From a virus, in IMG/VR virus record IMGVR_UViG_3300022921_000115, positions 1 through 23,181 of that record: 23,181 nt of DNA. The stretch is one strand, 5' to 3'. The notes beneath the pieces are model-generated. The model did not search any database and had not been told where the DNA came from. It was given only the letters and a program-made list of their open reading frames with translations. A program made the translations under genes and the position numbers. Shown piece after piece: positions 8,530 through 18,611 of the stretch. Position 1 is the first letter of the stretch; each line of letters begins with the position of its first letter.

Positions 8530-8558
8530 TTGACAAATCTTATAAATAGTGATATAAT
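8530..8558 (+). promoter_or_regulatory. Perfect-consensus sigma70-type promoter for the late operon
   Basis: TTGACA (8530-8535) and TATAAT (8553-8558) are both exact consensus hexamers, separated by the ideal 17 bases. The start of transcription would lie near 8565, about 48 bases before the ATG at 8613. A short AT-rich inverted repeat (AAGTTTA/TAAACTT, 8514-8531, loop CTAA) overlaps the -35 box and the stop of the preceding gene. The spacer contains a late-type promoter. Confidence 0.75.
8541..8548 (+). promoter_or_regulatory. T4-late-type promoter (TATAAATA) nested in the sigma70 promoter
   Basis: This is an exact TATAAATA followed by GT, lying inside the 17-base spacer of the sigma70-type promoter at 8530-8558. 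By T4 geometry its +1 would be near 8554, about ten bases upstream of the sigma70 start. The same gene could thus be read both by host sigma and by a phage late sigma. Confidence 0.7.
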
Positions 8559-8612: not shown

Positions 8613-9836
8613 ATGTTTAGTTTTAAAGGTTTTATTACAAGCGATAAGAACACACATTTAGAACATTTAGAAGATGATATAATAAATCGTGGTTCAGATG
8701 GTGGTCGAAACGCAGTTAATTTTTTAAAGTCAGTTAGAAATATGCTAGCTGGTTCTGCTAGTGGACGTATCAATATGTCTGTTAAGTGGGACGGTGCACC
8801 TGCTGTTATTGCAGGTATCAATCCAGAAAACGGCAAATTCTTTGTCGGTACAAAATCAGTATTCAACGTAACACCTAAAATCAATTATACATCTGGCGAT
8901 ATTGCTAGAAATCATAGTGGTCCTGTTGCAGATAAATTACGAGTATGTTTAAATGAATTAAAAAGATTAGGTATTAAAGGTATCTATCAAGGTGATTTAT
9001 TATTCACAAAAGGTGATTTAAAATCTGCTGCTATAGACGGTGAAAAAATGATTACGTTTACACCAAACACTATTACATATGCAGTACCAGTTAACTCATC
9101 TATCGGTAAAAGAATTGCAAGAGCAAGATTAGGAATTGTATTTCATACTTACTATACAGGTAAAGATATGAAATCATTATCAGCAGGATTTGGAACCGTA
9201 TCAGGCAAATCAGGTTCATCTGCTGTATTTTTAGCAAGTGCAGGTTATACTGATACATCTGGTTCATCTACATTTACATCTTCCGAGTTATCATCATTTG
9301 ACGCATTGATTAGAATGGCAGAAGGTTCTTTATCAAAGGCGGCACCTTTGTTAGATACTATGAAATCAAACGATAGTTTATCAGTAGGGTTTAGATTAAA
9401 GACATTTTTTAATTACTATATTAGAAATAGTAAAGGTAACTCTATGGCAAAAGTTAAAACTTTACAAGATATGTTTAGAGAATATTACGAACAGATTTTA
9501 AGAACAGAAATTATGGCAAGAAAAACTGAAAGTGGAAAACAAAAGTATAGAGATATAATGAAAACAGGTTTAAGTTTTATAGATAAAAATAGAAGTGCTT
9601 TATATTTTGCAATTGCTTCACACGTAAGTTTAGGTAACGCAAAGAATTTTTTAATTCAAAAACTATCTCAAATACAAAGTATAGGACATTTTATTAGAAC
9701 ACCAAACGGTTATCGTGTAACTAATCCAGAAGGATTTGTTGCAGTTGATAAAAAAGCAGGTGCAGTTAAACTTGTAGATAGATTAGAATTTAGTAGAGCA
9801 AACTTTACTATTGCAAAAGATTGGGTTAAAGGTTAA
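8613..9836 (+). CDS. Ligase-like nucleotidyltransferase with KWDG motif (resembles DUF6267)
   Basis: This 407-residue protein resembles a family found widely in T4-like cyanophages, which I believe is DUF6267. The N-terminus FKGFITSDKNTHLEHLEDDI and the core SVKWDGAPAVIAGINP are characteristic. KWDG at residues 58-61 matches motif I (K-x-D-G) of covalent nucleotidyltransferases such as ATP-dependent DNA and RNA ligases, in which the lysine carries AMP. FFVGTKSVF (about 76-84), GIYQGD (123-128) and RLGIVFH (172-178) could be later strands of the same fold. The C-terminal region (about 250-407) is helical. The true substrate is unknown to me. The protein lacks a clear lysine motif V, so it may be a divergent or inactive member. 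It heads an operon behind paired sigma70-type and late-type promoters. Confidence 0.7.
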   Translation: MFSFKGFITSDKNTHLEHLEDDIINRGSDGGRNAVNFLKSVRNMLAGSASGRINMSVKWDGAPAVIAGINPENGKFFVGTKSVFNVTPKINYTSGDIARNHSGPVADKLRVCLNELKRLGIKGIYQGDLLFTKGDLKSAAIDGEKMITFTPNTITYAVPVNSSIGKRIARARLGIVFHTYYTGKDMKSLSAGFGTVSGKSGSSAVFLASAGYTDTSGSSTFTSSELSSFDALIRMAEGSLSKAAPLLDTMKSNDSLSVGFRLKTFFNYYIRNSKGNSMAKVKTLQDMFREYYEQILRTEIMARKTESGKQKYRDIMKTGLSFIDKNRSALYFAIASHVSLGNAKNFLIQKLSQIQSIGHFIRTPNGYRVTNPEGFVAVDKKAGAVKLVDRLEFSRANFTIAKDWVKG

Positions 9837-10570: not shown

Positions 10571-11263
10571 ATGAAAAAAACTTTAGACGAAATCAGACAA
10601 TATATAAACGAGGGTGTTTATGATCCTGGTATATTCAAAGCATTTTTTCTTGCAGGTGGTCCTGGTTCAGGTAAAACTTTTGTAACTGCTACTGCTTTTG
10701 GTGGAACAGGTTTAAAAGTAGTAAATTCTGATAGATCATTTGAAAGAGGTTTGAAACAAGCAAACTTATCTCTTAAAATGCCAGATGAAGAAGAATACTT
10801 TAGAAACATTATTAGACAAAAAGCAAAAACGACTACCGCTTCAGCATTAGATACTTACATACAAGGTAGATTGGGATTAGTTATAGACGCAACAGGCAGA
10901 GATTTACAATTAGTACAAAGTCAAGTTGCATTATTAAGACATATCGGATATGATTGTTATATGGTATTTGTTAATACAAGTTTAGATGTTGCATTAGAAA
11001 GAAATAAAACTAGACCAAGATCAATACCAGAATATATTGTAAAAAAGAATTGGGAAGGTGTACAGGCAAATATAGGTTCATTTCAAAGATTGTTTAGTCC
11101 TAATAAAATGTTAATTGTCGATAACAATAGAAGTGAACAAGAATTAGTTACACAAACTTTAAATACTGCTTCTCGTTTTATTAGAAGTAGATTAAGAACT
11201 AAACCAGAAAGTGGTATAGCAATGAGTTGGATTAAAAAAGAATTGGAGTTAAAAAGAAGATGA
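10571..11263 (+). CDS. P-loop kinase-like ATP-binding protein, 230 aa
   Basis: This is a P-loop protein with Walker A GGPGSGKT at about residues 29-36, preceded by the hydrophobic strand FKAFFLA. The acceptor-side motif NSDRSFERGL follows. LGLVIDATGRD resembles the second Asp strand of nucleoside/polynucleotide kinase or zeta-toxin-type kinases. An arginine-rich lid-like stretch (ERNKTRPRSIPEYIVKKNW) precedes the last strand, LIVDNN. The likely activity is phosphate transfer from ATP, with the acceptor unknown. The N-terminus MKKTLDEIRQYINE ends in I-x-E before a Gly, resembling a phage head-protease cleavage site. The gene overlaps the next by four bases (ATGA). Confidence 0.8.
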   Translation: MKKTLDEIRQYINEGVYDPGIFKAFFLAGGPGSGKTFVTATAFGGTGLKVVNSDRSFERGLKQANLSLKMPDEEEYFRNIIRQKAKTTTASALDTYIQGRLGLVIDATGRDLQLVQSQVALLRHIGYDCYMVFVNTSLDVALERNKTRPRSIPEYIVKKNWEGVQANIGSFQRLFSPNKMLIVDNNRSEQELVTQTLNTASRFIRSRLRTKPESGIAMSWIKKELELKRR

Positions 11264-13890
11264 GATTTAAAGACTTCATAAAAGAATCTATTATTGATAT
11301 ACCAAGAAGAACTTATGCACCTGGTGTGTTTGATAATGCAGACACAAAAGAACCTAAGATTAAAAGTGAAATTATTGGTATGATAATGAAACAGTTTACA
11401 GAATTCAAAAAAGAATATCCTATATTAGATTATTCTTTAATAGGTTCTATCTTAACAAAAAGATATAGAGATGACGCAGATTTAGATATTAATGTATTGT
11501 TTGATGTACCAAAAGAAAAACAAGAAGAAGAAAGAGTCAGACTTTCTAAAAAATATTTGTCTGCTTCCAATCCAGATAATATACAAGGTAAGTTAATACC
11601 AGGTACAAAGCATCCTATTAATTATTATTTCATAACAGATAAAAAAACTTATGACGATCAAAATAAAAAAGCAGATGCTGTTTATGATATAGGTAAAAAC
11701 AAGTTTATAAAACGACCTGAAGAATTTAATTTTGACATTGATATGTACATTAATGACTTTAATAAAAAAGTACAAGAGATAGATGTCGTTAAGGGTGAAT
11801 TAAAAAGAGATATTATAGATTATGATGAACTAAAAGATTTAACTCCAAATGATGTTTTAAACCTACAAGACAAAATTAATAGTAAGTTAGAAGAAATAGA
11901 AGATGACTTACAACAAATTATTAAGATTGGCGACAACGTAGATGTTGAAAGAAGAGCTGCGTTTGATAAAGATATGTCGCCAGATGAAATCAGATTATAC
12001 GGTATTAAAAATAGATTACCTAAAAATGTTATCTATAAGATGTTAGAAAAATATCATTACTTAAAATTCTACAAAAAGTGTAAACAAATATTAGATGATG
12101 GTAAAGTAACAGACGCAGAAATAGATAGTTTGAAAGTAGAATCAGTTACATTAGATAAAATTAAATTAACTACTACTAGATGGTTTAAAGATGTTGTAGG
12201 TAAATTAAAAAGAATGGCAACAACATCTAAACGATATGAATATGCTGCTAAAGTTTTACAAGATGTTATTAATAGAAAGAAAAGAGAAAGATCATTAGAA
12301 GGTTTACCATTAAGACACGATATAGGATATTATGCTTCCGTTGTTGCAGATACATTTAAAGATATTGACTCTAAAAAACTACAATCAATGGTACACGAAG
12401 AATATTTACCAGAGGCAAAATCTGTTGCATTTACTTTTGGTAGATTTAATCCACCTACTACAGGACACGAAAAATTAATTAGCAAAGTTAAATCTTTACC
12501 TACAAATGATTATAAAATTTATTTAAGTAGAAGTGAAGACCCTAAAAAGAATCCATTATCTGCTAGACAGAAATTAGATTATATGAAAAAAATGTTTCCA
12601 CAACACGCTAGAAACATAGAGGTAAATACTTCTAATATGGTATTAGATATTGCTACTAATTTGTATAAAAAAGGTTATAAAGAAGTTAGTATGGTAGTAG
12701 GTAGTGATAGAGTTAGAGAATTTGAAACAATATTAAAAAAATATAATGATGTAAAATCCAGACACGGATATTATAACTTTGATAAGATCAATGTTGTTTC
12801 TGCTGGTGAAAGAGATCCAGATGCTGAAGGTGTATCAGGTATGTCAGCAAGTAAGATGAGGGACGCTGCTCAAAAAGGAGACGTTAAATCTTTTAGTCAA
12901 GGATTGCCTAGAGGATTTGGAGATGTAGAAAAACTATTTAAAGATGTAAGACGTGGTATGAATTTAGCTGCTAATTACACATATGTAGGTGACCATAGAC
13001 CTATTGCAAGTTTACAAGAATTTGAACAACAACAAATAAGAGATTTGTATGTTAGAGAAATGATCTTTAACATAGGTGACAAAGTTAATTACATTAGAGA
13101 AAATATAGATGGCAAAGTTGTTAGACGAGGAACTAATTACATTGTTGTAGAAGATAACGATAATAATTTACATAAGGCGTGGATTTGGGATTGTTTACCA
13201 GATCCTGCAGATAGAGAGGCTCAAGTGCGAGAATACAATTTAGATATTGATTATGGATTTGAAGCTGTTTCTGAAAAGAAAGAATACGGACATACAGATA
13301 GATTACCACAAGATAAAGACATATCTAAAGAAAAAGGTAGTCAACCTAAAAAATATTACAAACAGTTATCAAAAGATACAAAATCAACAAGGGCAAAACA
13401 TTTTAGTAAAACAGATACAACTAAAAATGACAATGACCCAGCACCTGGTGATAAAGACGCAAAAACAAAACCAAGTGTACATACACAAAAATACAAAAAG
13501 ATGTTTGGTGAATTAAAGAAAGAATTATCAGACGCTTGTTGGACAGGATATAAGAAGGTAGGAATGAAAAATAAAGGTGGAAAACAAGTACCAAATTGTG
13601 TGCCAGAAGCATACGATATTGGACACGATTATGCTCAACATACATTAAAAGTAACACCAGGACAAGACGGATTTGACCCTAATTATCAAGGAGGATCGTA
13701 TAAACCATCAGTTGATGGCACGTCAGGTGAACAAGTTGTAACAAGACCAATGACAACAGATATTTCTGTAAAAGATATAAATGATTGGGCAGCTTCAAGT
13801 GAAACAATAGATAAATATAGAGAAAGATACAAAGAAGAATGGAAGACAAAATTATCTGAAGTTGTATCTAAAATGATAAGGAATTTATAA
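11260..13890 (+). CDS. Multidomain nucleotidyltransferase: Pol-beta-like plus NMN adenylyltransferase domains
   Basis: This large fusion is 876 residues. The N-terminal leader MRFKDFIKES resembles the T4 capsid-targeting peptide and ends in I-x-E. A Pol-beta-type nucleotidyltransferase signature follows, with GS at 62-63 and DLD at 74-76 (YSLIGSILTKRYRDDADLDI). A helical linker runs to about 380. From 388 a NadM/NMNAT-type domain begins, with GRFNPPTTGH (394-403, the nucleotide-binding HxGH-type loop) and GMSASKMR (527-534, the ISxSxxR-type motif). That domain would make NAD from NMN and ATP. Residues about 602-648 look like a small KOW/SH3-like barrel (IGDKVNYI...GKVVRRGTNYIVV). The tail has the ACWTGYKKVGMKNKGGKQ motif with the CVP end (about 759-783), seen in other T4-like phage proteins. 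The fusion is unusual; domain assignments are by motif only. Confidence 0.85.
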   Translation: MRFKDFIKESIIDIPRRTYAPGVFDNADTKEPKIKSEIIGMIMKQFTEFKKEYPILDYSLIGSILTKRYRDDADLDINVLFDVPKEKQEEERVRLSKKYLSASNPDNIQGKLIPGTKHPINYYFITDKKTYDDQNKKADAVYDIGKNKFIKRPEEFNFDIDMYINDFNKKVQEIDVVKGELKRDIIDYDELKDLTPNDVLNLQDKINSKLEEIEDDLQQIIKIGDNVDVERRAAFDKDMSPDEIRLYGIKNRLPKNVIYKMLEKYHYLKFYKKCKQILDDGKVTDAEIDSLKVESVTLDKIKLTTTRWFKDVVGKLKRMATTSKRYEYAAKVLQDVINRKKRERSLEGLPLRHDIGYYASVVADTFKDIDSKKLQSMVHEEYLPEAKSVAFTFGRFNPPTTGHEKLISKVKSLPTNDYKIYLSRSEDPKKNPLSARQKLDYMKKMFPQHARNIEVNTSNMVLDIATNLYKKGYKEVSMVVGSDRVREFETILKKYNDVKSRHGYYNFDKINVVSAGERDPDAEGVSGMSASKMRDAAQKGDVKSFSQGLPRGFGDVEKLFKDVRRGMNLAANYTYVGDHRPIASLQEFEQQQIRDLYVREMIFNIGDKVNYIRENIDGKVVRRGTNYIVVEDNDNNLHKAWIWDCLPDPADREAQVREYNLDIDYGFEAVSEKKEYGHTDRLPQDKDISKEKGSQPKKYYKQLSKDTKSTRAKHFSKTDTTKNDNDPAPGDKDAKTKPSVHTQKYKKMFGELKKELSDACWTGYKKVGMKNKGGKQVPNCVPEAYDIGHDYAQHTLKVTPGQDGFDPNYQGGSYKPSVDGTSGEQVVTRPMTTDISVKDINDWAASSETIDKYRERYKEEWKTKLSEVVSKMIRNL

Positions 13891-14432
13891 TGTTAAGTTT
13901 TGCAGATTACAAAGATAAGATTTCTAAATCGGTACATTATCATATTGAGAATAATATACCGTTTGCTGAAAATATCTATAGACTTCATAGTGAAGAATTT
14001 TATAGATTGTTTAGAGAGGCAAGAGAGTTATATAATGAGGGTCTACTGACTGAAATATCTGATTGGGATAGACAGTTATTAGAAACCGACATAGGTGAAT
14101 TTGCATATTGCGAGGAAGAAAAAAGAAAAGTTCCTTTAGATGTGCCAATATCTGTCGAAGAAAAAGACGTAGAACTAAACAAACCTAAAAAAGGTGGACC
14201 TAAAAAGTTTTATGTATTTGTCAAAGACGGTGATAAGATTAAAAAAGTAACGTGGGGTGATACTACAGGATTAAAAGTAAAACTAAATGATCCTGAAGCA
14301 AGAAAAAGTTTTGCTGCTAGGCACAAATGTAGTCAACAAAAAGATAGAACATCGGCTGCTTATTGGGCGTGTAACTTACCTCGTTATGCAAAAACGCTAG
14401 GACTTTCTGGCGGTGGAAATTTTTATTGGTAA
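13890..14432 (+). CDS. Conserved T4-like phage protein, 180 aa
   Basis: The start overlaps the previous stop (TAATG). The first 85 residues are helical and acidic (YHIENNIPFAENIYRLHSEE, FREARELYNEGLLTE). A short proline/lysine linker (NKPKKGGPKK) leads into a strand-rich C-terminal domain with FYVFVKDGDKIKKVTWGD. It ends in the distinctive ARKSFAARHKCSQQKDRTSA, then YWACNLPRYAKTLGL. The two cysteines, the His and the Trp in this ending recur in proteins of marine T4-like phages and might form a small metal-binding or nucleic-acid-binding module (inference). I know no function. Its place in the late operon suggests a virion or head-assembly role. Confidence 0.75.
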   Translation: MLSFADYKDKISKSVHYHIENNIPFAENIYRLHSEEFYRLFREARELYNEGLLTEISDWDRQLLETDIGEFAYCEEEKRKVPLDVPISVEEKDVELNKPKKGGPKKFYVFVKDGDKIKKVTWGDTTGLKVKLNDPEARKSFAARHKCSQQKDRTSAAYWACNLPRYAKTLGLSGGGNFYW

Positions 14433-15036: not shown

Positions 15037-16440
15037 ATGAGTAGATATAGAGCAACAATGAGTGAACTTTTACAAAAAGTACACGAGCAAGATAAAGACC
15101 ACGAAGTATCAATGGCAAGAGGTGAACTAGAGGCAATTGCTGATAAGGCAACTCAACTTGCTTCAGCACTAAAAGGCAAATCAGATGAAGGCAATCCACT
15201 AGAAGCTTGGGTACAATCTAAAATTACAAAAGCAAAAGACTATATCAATTCAGTTTCAGACTATATGTTGTACAATCCTGATATGAAACAAAATGAAGAA
15301 ACTATATTAGAAAAAACTTATGGTTGGACTTTAGTTTCAAAAGCAAAAGACCTTGCTAAAAAGTTTGCTAATAATTACACAAAAGCTGTAGATGAAATAG
15401 AAAAACTAGAAAAGGGTTTATCTAAAAATCCTACAGTTGAAAAAGAATTAATGAAGTATAACGAAGAAGTTGAATTAGAAGAAGGCAAAATCAAAGATAT
15501 ATTTACTGCTAATAAAGAAGGCGAAAGTATAGAACAAATTGCTAAAAGATTAAATATGTCAGTTGCAACTGTTAAAAAACTTTTAGGTGAAGAAATTATA
15601 GATGAAAAAATTGCAGACAGTATTATTAAAGATTTACAAAAAGCATATGGTGATTTAAAAGGCAAAACTATATCTCCAGAAATGGCAACAAAAATATCAA
15701 AACATTTAGACGGTCAATCGTTTGATGTAGTTACATTAAGACAATTAATGAAAGCAAATATACCTTTTATATCTACAATCGCTAGAAATAAAATATATAA
15801 GAAGACAGGTAAGTTTGAAGAAGTAGAATTAGAAGAAGTTAAAACTCCTTCTATAGAACCTGACAAAAGATCAGACGGCGAAAAAGATATTGATAAAATT
15901 AAACTTGCAAAAGAAAAAGACACAGACGCAATAGAAAAACAATTAATTGCTGCTCAAGGTCAAATTAATATTTTAAAACAAAAATTAGAAAACGAAAAAA
16001 ATAAAGTAATTAAACCAGAACCAAATCCTGAAACAGGAGAAGTTCCATTAACAGTAGGTGTTGCATACAAATATTTCAAAGATAAAGAAATGAAAAAAGA
16101 ATCAGTAGATAATTATCCGACAAGTGATATTGCAAAACATAAAAAAGATGTTGCAGCTGATCCTAAAATGGGTGAAAAGAAACCTGTACATTTGGGTGCA
16201 AAAATGACTTACGAAAGTATTGCGGCTGTAAAAAACAAGGCAGAAAAAACAGGTATGCCTTACAGTATATTAAAACAAGTTTATGATAGAGGTATGGCCG
16301 CTTGGAGAGGCGGACACAGACCTGGTGCTACACAAGTACAATGGGCACTTGCTAGAGTAAATTCATTTGTAACAAAATCCTCAGGTACGTGGGGTGGCGC
16401 TGATAGTGATTTAGCGAAAAAAGTAAAGGGGGAAAAATAA
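15037..16440 (+). CDS. Multidomain late protein, 467 aa, with DUF5824-like C-terminus
   Basis: AGGAG at 15028-15032 precedes the ATG. The N-terminal domain contains MARGELEAIADKATQLASAL and EAWVQSKITKAKDYINSV, a pair of helices I associate with conserved proteins of T4-like marine phages. A helix-turn-helix-like element, GESIEQIAKRLNMSVATVKK, lies at about 162-181. The element VELEE occurs twice (about 145 and 267), flanking the middle region. A Lys/Glu-rich linker follows. The last 65 residues (GMPYSILKQVYDRGMAAW, GHRPGATQVQWALARVNSF, GTWGGADSDLAKK) resemble the domain I know as DUF5824. No enzyme motif is evident. Abundant charge and its operon position suggest a core, scaffold or internal head role (inference). 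Confidence 0.75.
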   Translation: MSRYRATMSELLQKVHEQDKDHEVSMARGELEAIADKATQLASALKGKSDEGNPLEAWVQSKITKAKDYINSVSDYMLYNPDMKQNEETILEKTYGWTLVSKAKDLAKKFANNYTKAVDEIEKLEKGLSKNPTVEKELMKYNEEVELEEGKIKDIFTANKEGESIEQIAKRLNMSVATVKKLLGEEIIDEKIADSIIKDLQKAYGDLKGKTISPEMATKISKHLDGQSFDVVTLRQLMKANIPFISTIARNKIYKKTGKFEEVELEEVKTPSIEPDKRSDGEKDIDKIKLAKEKDTDAIEKQLIAAQGQINILKQKLENEKNKVIKPEPNPETGEVPLTVGVAYKYFKDKEMKKESVDNYPTSDIAKHKKDVAADPKMGEKKPVHLGAKMTYESIAAVKNKAEKTGMPYSILKQVYDRGMAAWRGGHRPGATQVQWALARVNSFVTKSSGTWGGADSDLAKKVKGEK

Positions 16441-17507: not shown

Positions 17508-17996
17508 ATGAAATCACGTATCTATTGTGATATGGATGGTGTTCTTTGCGACTTTAAAAAGGCAGCAGAGAAAGTTACTGGTATGCCTATATCAAAATGG
17601 TCATATGCAAGTAAACAAGAGAAGTGGCAACCAATCAAAGACACTCCACGATTTTGGCACACACTTCCTTGGATGCCAGGTGGAAGAGAGCTTTGGTCTT
17701 TCATCTCAAATAATAAACCACATATACTATCAGCATACGTAGAAGAAAGTTTTGATCCTAATTGCATACCAGGTAAATCACATTGGGCAAGAACTAATTT
17801 AGGTATTGCACCAGGTCGTGTACATTTAGTCAAAAGAGTACAAAAACAAAACTACGCCAAAGTGGTTGGTGTACCAGCTATTTTAATAGACGACTATAAG
17901 AAAAATACAGATCAATTCACACAAAGAGGTGGTATCGGAATACTACACACTTCTACTTCCAATACGATTAGAGAACTTAAAAAACTAGGTTTCTAG
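17508..17996 (+). CDS. HAD-family phosphatase, 5'(3')-deoxyribonucleotidase-like
   Basis: This is a HAD-superfamily hydrolase, 162 residues, which is short but typical of phage members. The nucleophile motif DMDGVLCDF is at residues 8-16, with D8 and the general acid D10. The second motif region is HILSAY (about 72-77). HLVKRVQKQNYA carries the motif III lysine and ILIDDYKKN supplies the motif IV aspartates. VLCDF and the helical cap (ISKWSYASKQEKW) resemble 5'(3')-deoxyribonucleotidases, which dephosphorylate nucleotides. A polynucleotide 3'-phosphatase role is an alternative, given the kinase and ligase-like genes upstream. No ribosome-binding sequence is obvious in the three-base gap after the previous stop. 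Confidence 0.85.
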   Translation: MKSRIYCDMDGVLCDFKKAAEKVTGMPISKWSYASKQEKWQPIKDTPRFWHTLPWMPGGRELWSFISNNKPHILSAYVEESFDPNCIPGKSHWARTNLGIAPGRVHLVKRVQKQNYAKVVGVPAILIDDYKKNTDQFTQRGGIGILHTSTSNTIRELKKLGF

Positions 17997-18006
17997 TATC
18001 CATTCT

Positions 18007-18014
18007 TATAAATA
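18007..18014 (+). promoter_or_regulatory. T4-late-type promoter (TATAAATA)
   Basis: This exact TATAAATA, followed by GT, lies in the 57-base gap after the phosphatase gene. By T4 geometry +1 falls near 18020, leaving a leader of about 34 bases that contains AAGGAG (18042-18047) before the ATG at 18054. It is the clearest late promoter in the window. Confidence 0.8.
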
Positions 18015-18053: not shown

Positions 18054-18611
18054 ATGTCTTTATGGGGAAACGATATAAAGCCTAAAAATCTTACAGACGA
18101 AGAAAAAAAAGAAGTCTATGCAACCGCTCAAGGTTGGGTAAGAGAAGCAGGCTCAGTATTATCAGGTAATGATAATCCAAATGCAGATCCTGAAGTATTA
18201 GTAGCAATCGGCGGATTAGCTACAAATATGGGTTCAGCAAATATTACTGAAATAGAATTTGTAACAACATCAATCGGTGCAGCTGCTGGTGGAAACATTG
18301 ACGTTAGAGTAAGATTTAACGAAAGAGTTGACATTACAGGAACACCACAAGTAACAGTAACTAACGACCAAACAGGTAGTGGTACTGATGCTACATTTAC
18401 AGCAGATTATAACTCTGGTACAGGAACTAACGAAATTGTATTCAGAGCAACTTATGGTGCTGCAGATGGTGGTATTGCTGAGAATGATGTATTATCAATT
18501 GGCTCTAACGCAGTAGCACTTAACAGTGGTACTATTAAAGATGCTGGTACAACAACAAACTCTACAATTACAAACGCTGCTCAAGCAGGTACATTAACTG
18601 TAGCAGCTTAA
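18054..18611 (+). CDS. Decoration/fibre-like virion protein with Ig-like beta domain, 185 aa
   Basis: The short N-terminal part, MSLWGNDIKPKNLTDEEKKE plus VYATAQGWVREAG, is of a type seen in abundant virion proteins of marine T4-like phages. From about residue 62 a beta-sandwich repeat follows: VRVRFNERVDITGTPQVTVT, TADYNSGTGTNEIVFRA, SNAVALNSGTIKDAG. This pattern (hydrophobic strand, xVxVTGTPxxxV, GSGTxxxxF, LNxGTIKDA) matches Ig-like repeats in bacterial surface proteins and phage decoration or fibre proteins. Codon use is richer in GCT, GGT and GCA than in neighbouring genes, as expected for an abundant protein. It has its own late promoter, a strong ribosome-binding site and a terminator-like hairpin after it, forming a single-gene unit. 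Confidence 0.75.
   Translation: MSLWGNDIKPKNLTDEEKKEVYATAQGWVREAGSVLSGNDNPNADPEVLVAIGGLATNMGSANITEIEFVTTSIGAAAGGNIDVRVRFNERVDITGTPQVTVTNDQTGSGTDATFTADYNSGTGTNEIVFRATYGAADGGIAENDVLSIGSNAVALNSGTIKDAGTTTNSTITNAAQAGTLTVAA

Follow-up and report, generated by a model that had tools for sequence, protein, structure and literature searches.

Why would a virus place two nucleotide-transferring domains in one protein among its late genes? The question is raised by positions 1 to 23,181 of the IMG/VR virus record IMGVR_UViG_3300022921_000115 (the window; 23,181 bases, and records of this type may be fragments), which contain an 876-residue open reading frame (ORF) at 11260..13890 on the plus strand. An initial annotation had placed this ORF exactly and had read it as a late or virion protein that joins a Pol-beta-like nucleotidyltransferase to an NMN (nicotinamide mononucleotide) adenylyltransferase (NMNAT). 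Based on the ORF list, Pfam and PHROG profiles and relatives of like architecture, we describe it as a leader-MNT-NMNAT-barrel fusion protein, MNT standing for minimal nucleotidyltransferase. With about even confidence, we interpret it as an internal head (ejection) protein of a T4-like marine phage, synthesized late, packaged and injected with its two nucleotidyltransferases.

Two nucleotidyltransferase domains in one protein

Pfam assigns two domains to the ORF, each slightly above its curated cut-off of 21 bits: NTP_transf_2 (PF01909; residues 42-97, 21.6 bits) and CTP_transf_like (PF01467; residues 392-500, 25.5 bits). The ORF also matches PHROG 395 and PHROG 3041, both named "cytidyltransferase" (3e-71 and 6e-70, respectively). 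Conservation was judged from 40 non-redundant relatives of the fusion protein, and because the GS...DxD and HIGH motifs are invariant among them, their presence is not a matter of chance.

The core of the first domain spans residues 18-148 (11311..11703, +), across which an AlphaFold model of residues 9-295 has a predicted local distance difference test (pLDDT) score of about 90. The best Foldseek match in the PDB was HI0073 (1no5), an MNT (prob 0.99, E 4.6e-3); most of the next matches were aminoglycoside nucleotidyltransferases, MntA, CCA-adding enzymes and CD-NTases. Since no PDB match in Foldseek reached E 0.001, the fold class is well supported and the subfamily is not. The core has the GS-x(9-12)-D-x-D motif of Pol-beta/MNT nucleotidyltransferases as GSILTKRYRDDADLD at residues 62-76 (11443..11487, +), where G62, S63, D74 and D76 are invariant in 40/40 relatives. 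Thus, the nucleotidyltransferase fold that the initial annotation expected at residues 55-150 is predicted there, with the GS...DxD residues kept in the relatives, and profile, fold and invariant motifs agree on two nucleotidyltransferase domains. The strand that follows the catalytic motif carries HPIN (residues 118-121, 11611..11622, +), in which H118, P119 and N121 are invariant. Residues 160-294 (11737..12141, +) form a helical extension, modeled with lower confidence; it is strongly conserved, for example in DVxKGELxRDxxDY. The linker that follows (residues 295-385, 12142..12414, +) is unconserved and is essentially absent from one related locus (L090).

In BFVD, the model matched proteins of uncultured phages (E 6e-7 to 1.4e-4), one of them annotated as an amidoligase, and a sequence search of the PDB with the first domain gave nothing significant. 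A tblastn search of 50,697 phage records with residues 1-375 returned no match at E 0.01, and we therefore rejected the idea that the MNT part is a domain common in cultured phages. Among 84,980 prokaryotic genomes it had only three matches, each amid phage-like genes. An MntA/HEPN toxin-antitoxin pair was likewise rejected, as the MntA model of NCBIfam scored 14.7 against a 60-bit cut-off and a Pfam scan of ten window proteins found no HEPN family. PADLOC gave only a weak match to a candidate-defense NTase.

The second domain (residues 388-560, 12421..12939, +) is a HIGH-superfamily, NMNAT-like nucleotidylyltransferase according to PF01467, NCBIfam TIGR01526, Foldseek and an AlphaFold model of residues 388-650 (mean pLDDT 87). 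It contains GRFNPPTTGH (residues 394-403, 12439..12468, +), invariant apart from position 401, and the invariant SASKMR (residues 529-534, 12844..12861, +), at the positions given in the initial annotation, where the latter was listed as GMSASKMR (527-534). TTGH (400-403) and SASKMR correspond to the (H/T)xGH and distal SxxxxR-type motifs of the HIGH fold, features that are common to other enzymes of the superfamily. Foldseek ranked phosphopantetheine adenylyltransferase (PPAT) first (E 9.7e-6), NadM fifth and NadD lower, all three at prob 1.00, and a sequence search of the PDB returned a weak PPAT match only. In NCBIfam, the best model was the NadR-NMNAT model TIGR01526 (5e-5; 22.7 against a cut-off of 341 bits), while TIGR00482 scored 13.1 against 112 bits, so that neither family-level (equivalog) NMNAT cut-off was reached; the CoaD model matched at 8e-4, also far under its cut-off. 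The terminal arginine of SASKMR and the segment GSDRVREF are, we assume, closer to NMNAT than to PPAT. Judged by sequence, NMNAT is most likely the activity of this domain; it is preferred but unproven because NCBIfam favors NadR-NMNAT over CoaD with both far under cut-off and Foldseek puts PPAT first. The NMNAT-like motifs read in the initial annotation are supported, and synthesis of NAD by this domain is a prediction.

A scan of viral contigs revealed whole-length relatives of the fusion protein among uncultured marine viruses. In the fetched loci, both domains occur together in at least 123 complete distinct ORFs, and the second domain stands alone in at least 62, mostly of the Melnitz type; each locus scan started from a single architecture and gave at most 80 loci, so these counts are not natural frequencies. 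In four loci (L047, L049, L054 and L055), the MNT-NMNAT frame runs on upstream without a stop, indicating a further fusion or an unusual start, and the extension in L047 matches a PAP2-phosphatase domain (PF01569, E 9e-8). In three others (L028, L292 and L295), the fusion ORF is broken into two frames, through either assembly errors or real breaks. The annotated NMNAT of phage C48C1 (L083:8040) starts at MNPPTIGH, which cuts the HIGH motif and omits a leader-like VIKNFSQYLLE; its real start probably lies upstream.

A T4-type leader shared by unrelated proteins

The initial annotation had noted a head-leader-like N-terminus, and this was borne out. The first nine residues, MRFKDFIKE (11260..11286, +), are followed directly by S-IIDIP, and the N-termini of relatives show the same arrangement of a variable leader (MKFKDYLKE, MKKFREIIE and others) before a near-invariant E[SA][IV]IDIP. 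The T4 protease gp21 cleaves after L/I-x-E, and in IPIII the ten N-terminal residues are enough for head targeting (PMC9026906); this capsid-targeting sequence (CTS) is also described in PMC3012670. The leader ends in the same L/I-x-E pattern as T4-type capsid-targeted internal proteins, and the T4 rule, the N-termini of relatives and the leader enrichment described below together predict a prohead-protease cut after Glu9 (IKE/S).

When a single leader pattern was applied to 1,482 dereplicated ORFs from relatives, it matched 128, compared with a mean of 6.3 and a maximum of 13 in shuffled controls. The carriers belong to at least eight unrelated families and include MNT-NMNAT proteins, an adenylate-kinase-like protein, DUF6267 proteins, a zeta-like kinase and several small proteins. 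Because the loci were picked around these genes and share ancestry, the weight of this result rests on the number of unrelated families and not on the number of ORFs. The leader-bearing adenylate-kinase-like protein (MKGFRDFIFE..., MKTFLTFLEE...) belongs to the same block of genes, where it precedes the zeta-like kinase (L091:1239-1826, L092:4436-5014, L012, L020 and L026).

Relatives in cyanophage virions

Relatives of the NMNAT-like domain were found by mass spectrometry in purified virions of S-SCSM1 (PMC9602691), S-SZBM1 (PMC9146016) and S-CREM2 (PMC10665884). S-CBWM1 is also cited as having an NMNAT-like protein. The three virion-detected proteins begin with MKSFLQFLKE, MRFRQFIIE and MKNFSSFLTE, respectively, and the surrounding gene block in S-SCSM1 is mostly labeled "virion protein."

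We then compared leader and virion detection in S-CREM2 (OR473000), using a leader pattern derived from other phages. Among its non-structural proteins, the leader is present on 4 of the 26 detected in virions (an S-adenosylmethionine [SAM] hydrolase, a kinase, the NMNAT and gp136) and on 2 of the 167 undetected ones. Fisher's exact test gave p = 0.003 for non-structural proteins, 0.029 for all proteins and 0.017 for non-structural proteins of at least 80 residues; these are three cuts of one table and are uncorrected. The virion SAM hydrolase and kinase with the leader and a Cas9-like virion protein are among gp6, gp12 and gp14 of this phage; the Cas9-like protein has RFASFMAEA about 18 residues into its sequence, perhaps a mis-set start or an internal leader, and was excluded from the count.

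Together, the leader and the leader-bearing NMNAT relatives in three virion proteomes make packaging probable, as the initial annotation had supposed. It had called such an enzyme unexpected in a virion, which needs softening, since NMNAT-like proteins in cyanophage virions were reported in 2022-2023 (PMC9602691, PMC9146016, PMC10665884). The main text of a 2010 cyanomyovirus paper does not mention an NMNAT-like protein under the names searched. What is new here relative to the known virion NMNAT is the MNT fusion, the leader and the late-operon neighbors, and a partial literature search returned no earlier description of the MNT fusion, of a shared T4-type leader as a packaging tag, or of a late operon in which a KWDG protein is encoded along with kinases.

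Late promoters and the presumed operon

Late expression, also proposed in the initial annotation, agrees with an exact T4-type late promoter, TATAAATA, at 8541..8548 (+), 72 nt ahead of the first gene of the presumed operon. A second exact copy at 18007..18014 (+) lies 47 nt ahead of the next structural gene at 18054. These two are the only exact occurrences in the window, both on the plus strand and both intergenic. Because the exact count is below chance expectation (2 compared with a shuffled mean of 6), the promoter evidence consists of position and conservation only: the motif occurs within 200 nt upstream of the DUF6267 gene in 63 of 94 loci, compared with 2.9% of random windows. A one-mismatch scan was uninformative (98 found, 117 expected). 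The genes between the two promoters all run in one direction with short gaps or overlaps.

The operon would begin with a DUF6267 gene (8613..9836, +; PF19782, E 1.6e-119) encoding KWDG...EGFV...KLV motifs. KWDG is present in 157/157 relatives, EG[YF]V in 156/157 and VKLV in most. We take these to resemble motifs I, IV and V of ligase- or capping-type covalent nucleotidyltransferases, and by its motifs DUF6267 may be an unrecognized ligase-like enzyme; as a ligase it lacks PDB sequence support, since a search of the PDB gave no sequence match to ligases. Along the 764 positions of the PHROG 455 profile, the first half corresponds to DUF6267 and the second to the NMNAT-like domain, which suggests that some phages have both fused. 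An AAA_33/zeta-like P-loop kinase gene (10571..11263, +), identified by Pfam, shares its last 4 nt with the start of the fusion gene; its product shows similarity to zeta, PSTK and, weakly, Pnkp. Of 93 relatives, 91 have the kinase gene no more than 3 kb ahead of the fusion gene, 69 of them directly before it, and 54 have an adenylate-kinase-like gene upstream. HTVC008M shows a similar overlap between its kinase and cytidyltransferase genes. The presumed operon ends with a 5'-3' deoxyribonucleotidase-like (NT5C) gene (17508..17996, +; phrog_2643, E 1.2e-25), which has a counterpart at the equivalent place in HTVC008M.

A proposed packaged double nucleotidyltransferase and its alternatives

In the scheme that we favor, comparative evidence suggests that the fusion protein is synthesized late and that its first nine residues would target it into the prohead. 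A gp21-type protease would then trim the leader after Glu9, and the protein would be ejected into the host together with the DNA. There, the NMNAT-like domain would most likely join ATP to NMN or nicotinate mononucleotide (NaMN) and so refill NAD at the start of infection, while the MNT domain would most likely place a nucleotide (AMP) on a host protein or RNA, presumably to the benefit of the phage. NMNAT-like proteins in cyanophage virions have so far been an odd observation, with nothing to account for their targeting. A T4-type leader common to them, if true, would explain head entry and give a simple, testable sequence rule for predicting injected enzymes, including those of uncultured marine phages. 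If the fusion protein acts on arrival, one injected protein would combine the supply of NAD (or a related coenzyme) with target nucleotidylation before phage transcription. A broader proposal, in which a leader-tagged kit packaged in the head (MNT-NMNAT, zeta-like kinase, in many cases adenylate kinase, and ligase-like DUF6267) is injected before phage gene expression, resets host NAD and adenylate pools and nucleotidylates host targets, is doubtful.

Several observations weigh against this interpretation. The virion data come from relatives and not from any fusion-bearing phage, and the authors of the cyanophage proteomes note that highly expressed proteins may be carried over into CsCl-purified virions (PMC9602691, PMC10665884). 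The P-HM1 NMNAT has no leader and that of HTVC008M is degenerate. S-SCSM1 offered a second test of the leader, and besides the NMNAT its sole convincing carrier, gp030, was undetected in virions. In the first domain, the strand HPINYY has the invariant Asn121 at the expected third acidic position (placed by secondary structure, without superposition), and the third Pol-beta carboxylate thus appears to be replaced in the model. Structure comparison with Foldseek does not separate NMNAT from PPAT. Finally, NadV/NAMPT (PF04095) was not detected in the complete HTVC008M and Melnitz genomes, for which reason we rejected NadV-dependent NAD salvage, and phage NAD synthesis, if any, would have to draw on NMN or NaMN from the host. 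NadV was also not detected in longer fragments of fusion-bearing phages, which could miss it. Phage NAD synthesis has been discussed as counter-defense (PMC9503650), and by analogy the anti-NADase role raised in the initial annotation is possible.

The same evidence can be arranged differently. A packaged protein whose second domain adenylylates or cytidylylates another small molecule (phosphopantetheine-, glycerol-phosphate- or nucleotide-like), for general nucleotide or coenzyme supply, is a possible but somewhat unlikely reading; the PPAT-first structural ranking with NadM fifth, the CoaD match, T-x-G-H in place of H-x-G-H and the adjoining kinase and nucleotidase families, which act on nucleotides, all fit it, but NadR-NMNAT is the best NCBIfam match and the SASKMR arginine and GSDRVREF are presumably NMNAT-like. 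We think it unlikely that the fusion protein is an ordinary late cytoplasmic auxiliary metabolic enzyme, with virion detection of relatives due to carry-over and the N-terminal similarity unrelated to packaging. The authors' own caveat, the leaderless P-HM1 protein and the failure of S-SCSM1 to extend the leader statistic would be accommodated, but three independent virion proteomes, the same leader on unrelated proteins and a late, virion-type gene block with its promoter would not. A kit for RNA or nucleotide repair, in which the kinase, ligase-like DUF6267 and MNT mend or modify tRNA or other RNA and the HIGH domain supplies or consumes dinucleotides, would draw on the DUF6267 motifs, the zeta, PSTK and weak Pnkp similarity of the kinase, the conserved gene adjacency and the phrog_455 profile that joins DUF6267 to the NMNAT-like domain; it is very unlikely, as the ligase reading comes from motifs without a ligase match in the PDB and no RNA-binding domain was identified.

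Relation to known systems

The closest counterparts of the fusion protein are the cyanophage "cytidylyltransferases" (S-SCSM1 ORF91, S-SZBM1_140 and S-CREM2 gp154; PHROG 395), which share a homologous HIGH domain, a leader-type N-terminus and virion association, and in S-SCSM1 a gene block of comparable make-up that lies between helicase and primase. The MNT domain is missing from them; the window protein has it, together with the helical extension and other tails. The likeness to T4 internal head proteins with a CTS (IPI-III and Alt) is confined to an N-terminal stretch of about ten residues that ends in L/I-x-E, a tag common to differing proteins; the cargo here is a double nucleotidyltransferase, and its trimming and ejection are predicted. 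HI0073, MntA and aminoglycoside nucleotidyltransferases share the fold and GSx10DxD with the first domain, but the window protein differs from minimal nucleotidyltransferases in the apparent Asn in place of the third carboxylate, the long conserved helical extension, the NMNAT-like fusion and an MntA score far under cut-off. With phage NadR/NadM and NadV (PMC9503650), it shares predicted NMN adenylylation, and the adjoining separate P-loop kinase recalls the kinase-NMNAT pairing of NadR; in contrast, searches of HTVC008M and Melnitz gave no NadV, the kinase is zeta/AAA_33-like and there is no Nudix domain.

C-terminal segments

A KOW-like barrel had been proposed behind the second domain. DSSP analysis of the AlphaFold model supports a small five-strand barrel-like segment at residues 608-647 (13081..13200, +; pLDDT mostly 82 to 94), but Pfam gave no KOW match in the fusion protein, and we dropped the family label in favor of "small barrel." Residues 696-756 (13345..13527, +) resemble the N-terminal half of a DUF5824-like module (PF19141, E 0.0015, under cut-off), which is over cut-off in one relative (L092). 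The CWTGY...VPNC motif (residues 760-781, 13537..13602, +), initially described as a C-terminal tail, proved to be internal: it is trailed by 96 residues, is present in 53 of 99 complete relatives and also occurs on four other protein families. DUF5824 halves, DUF5754-like segments and CWxGY tails are spread over differing proteins of the gene block (window positions 13345-13602, 13890-14432 and 15037-16440; also L082 and L084), and they differ between phages on one common NMNAT core.

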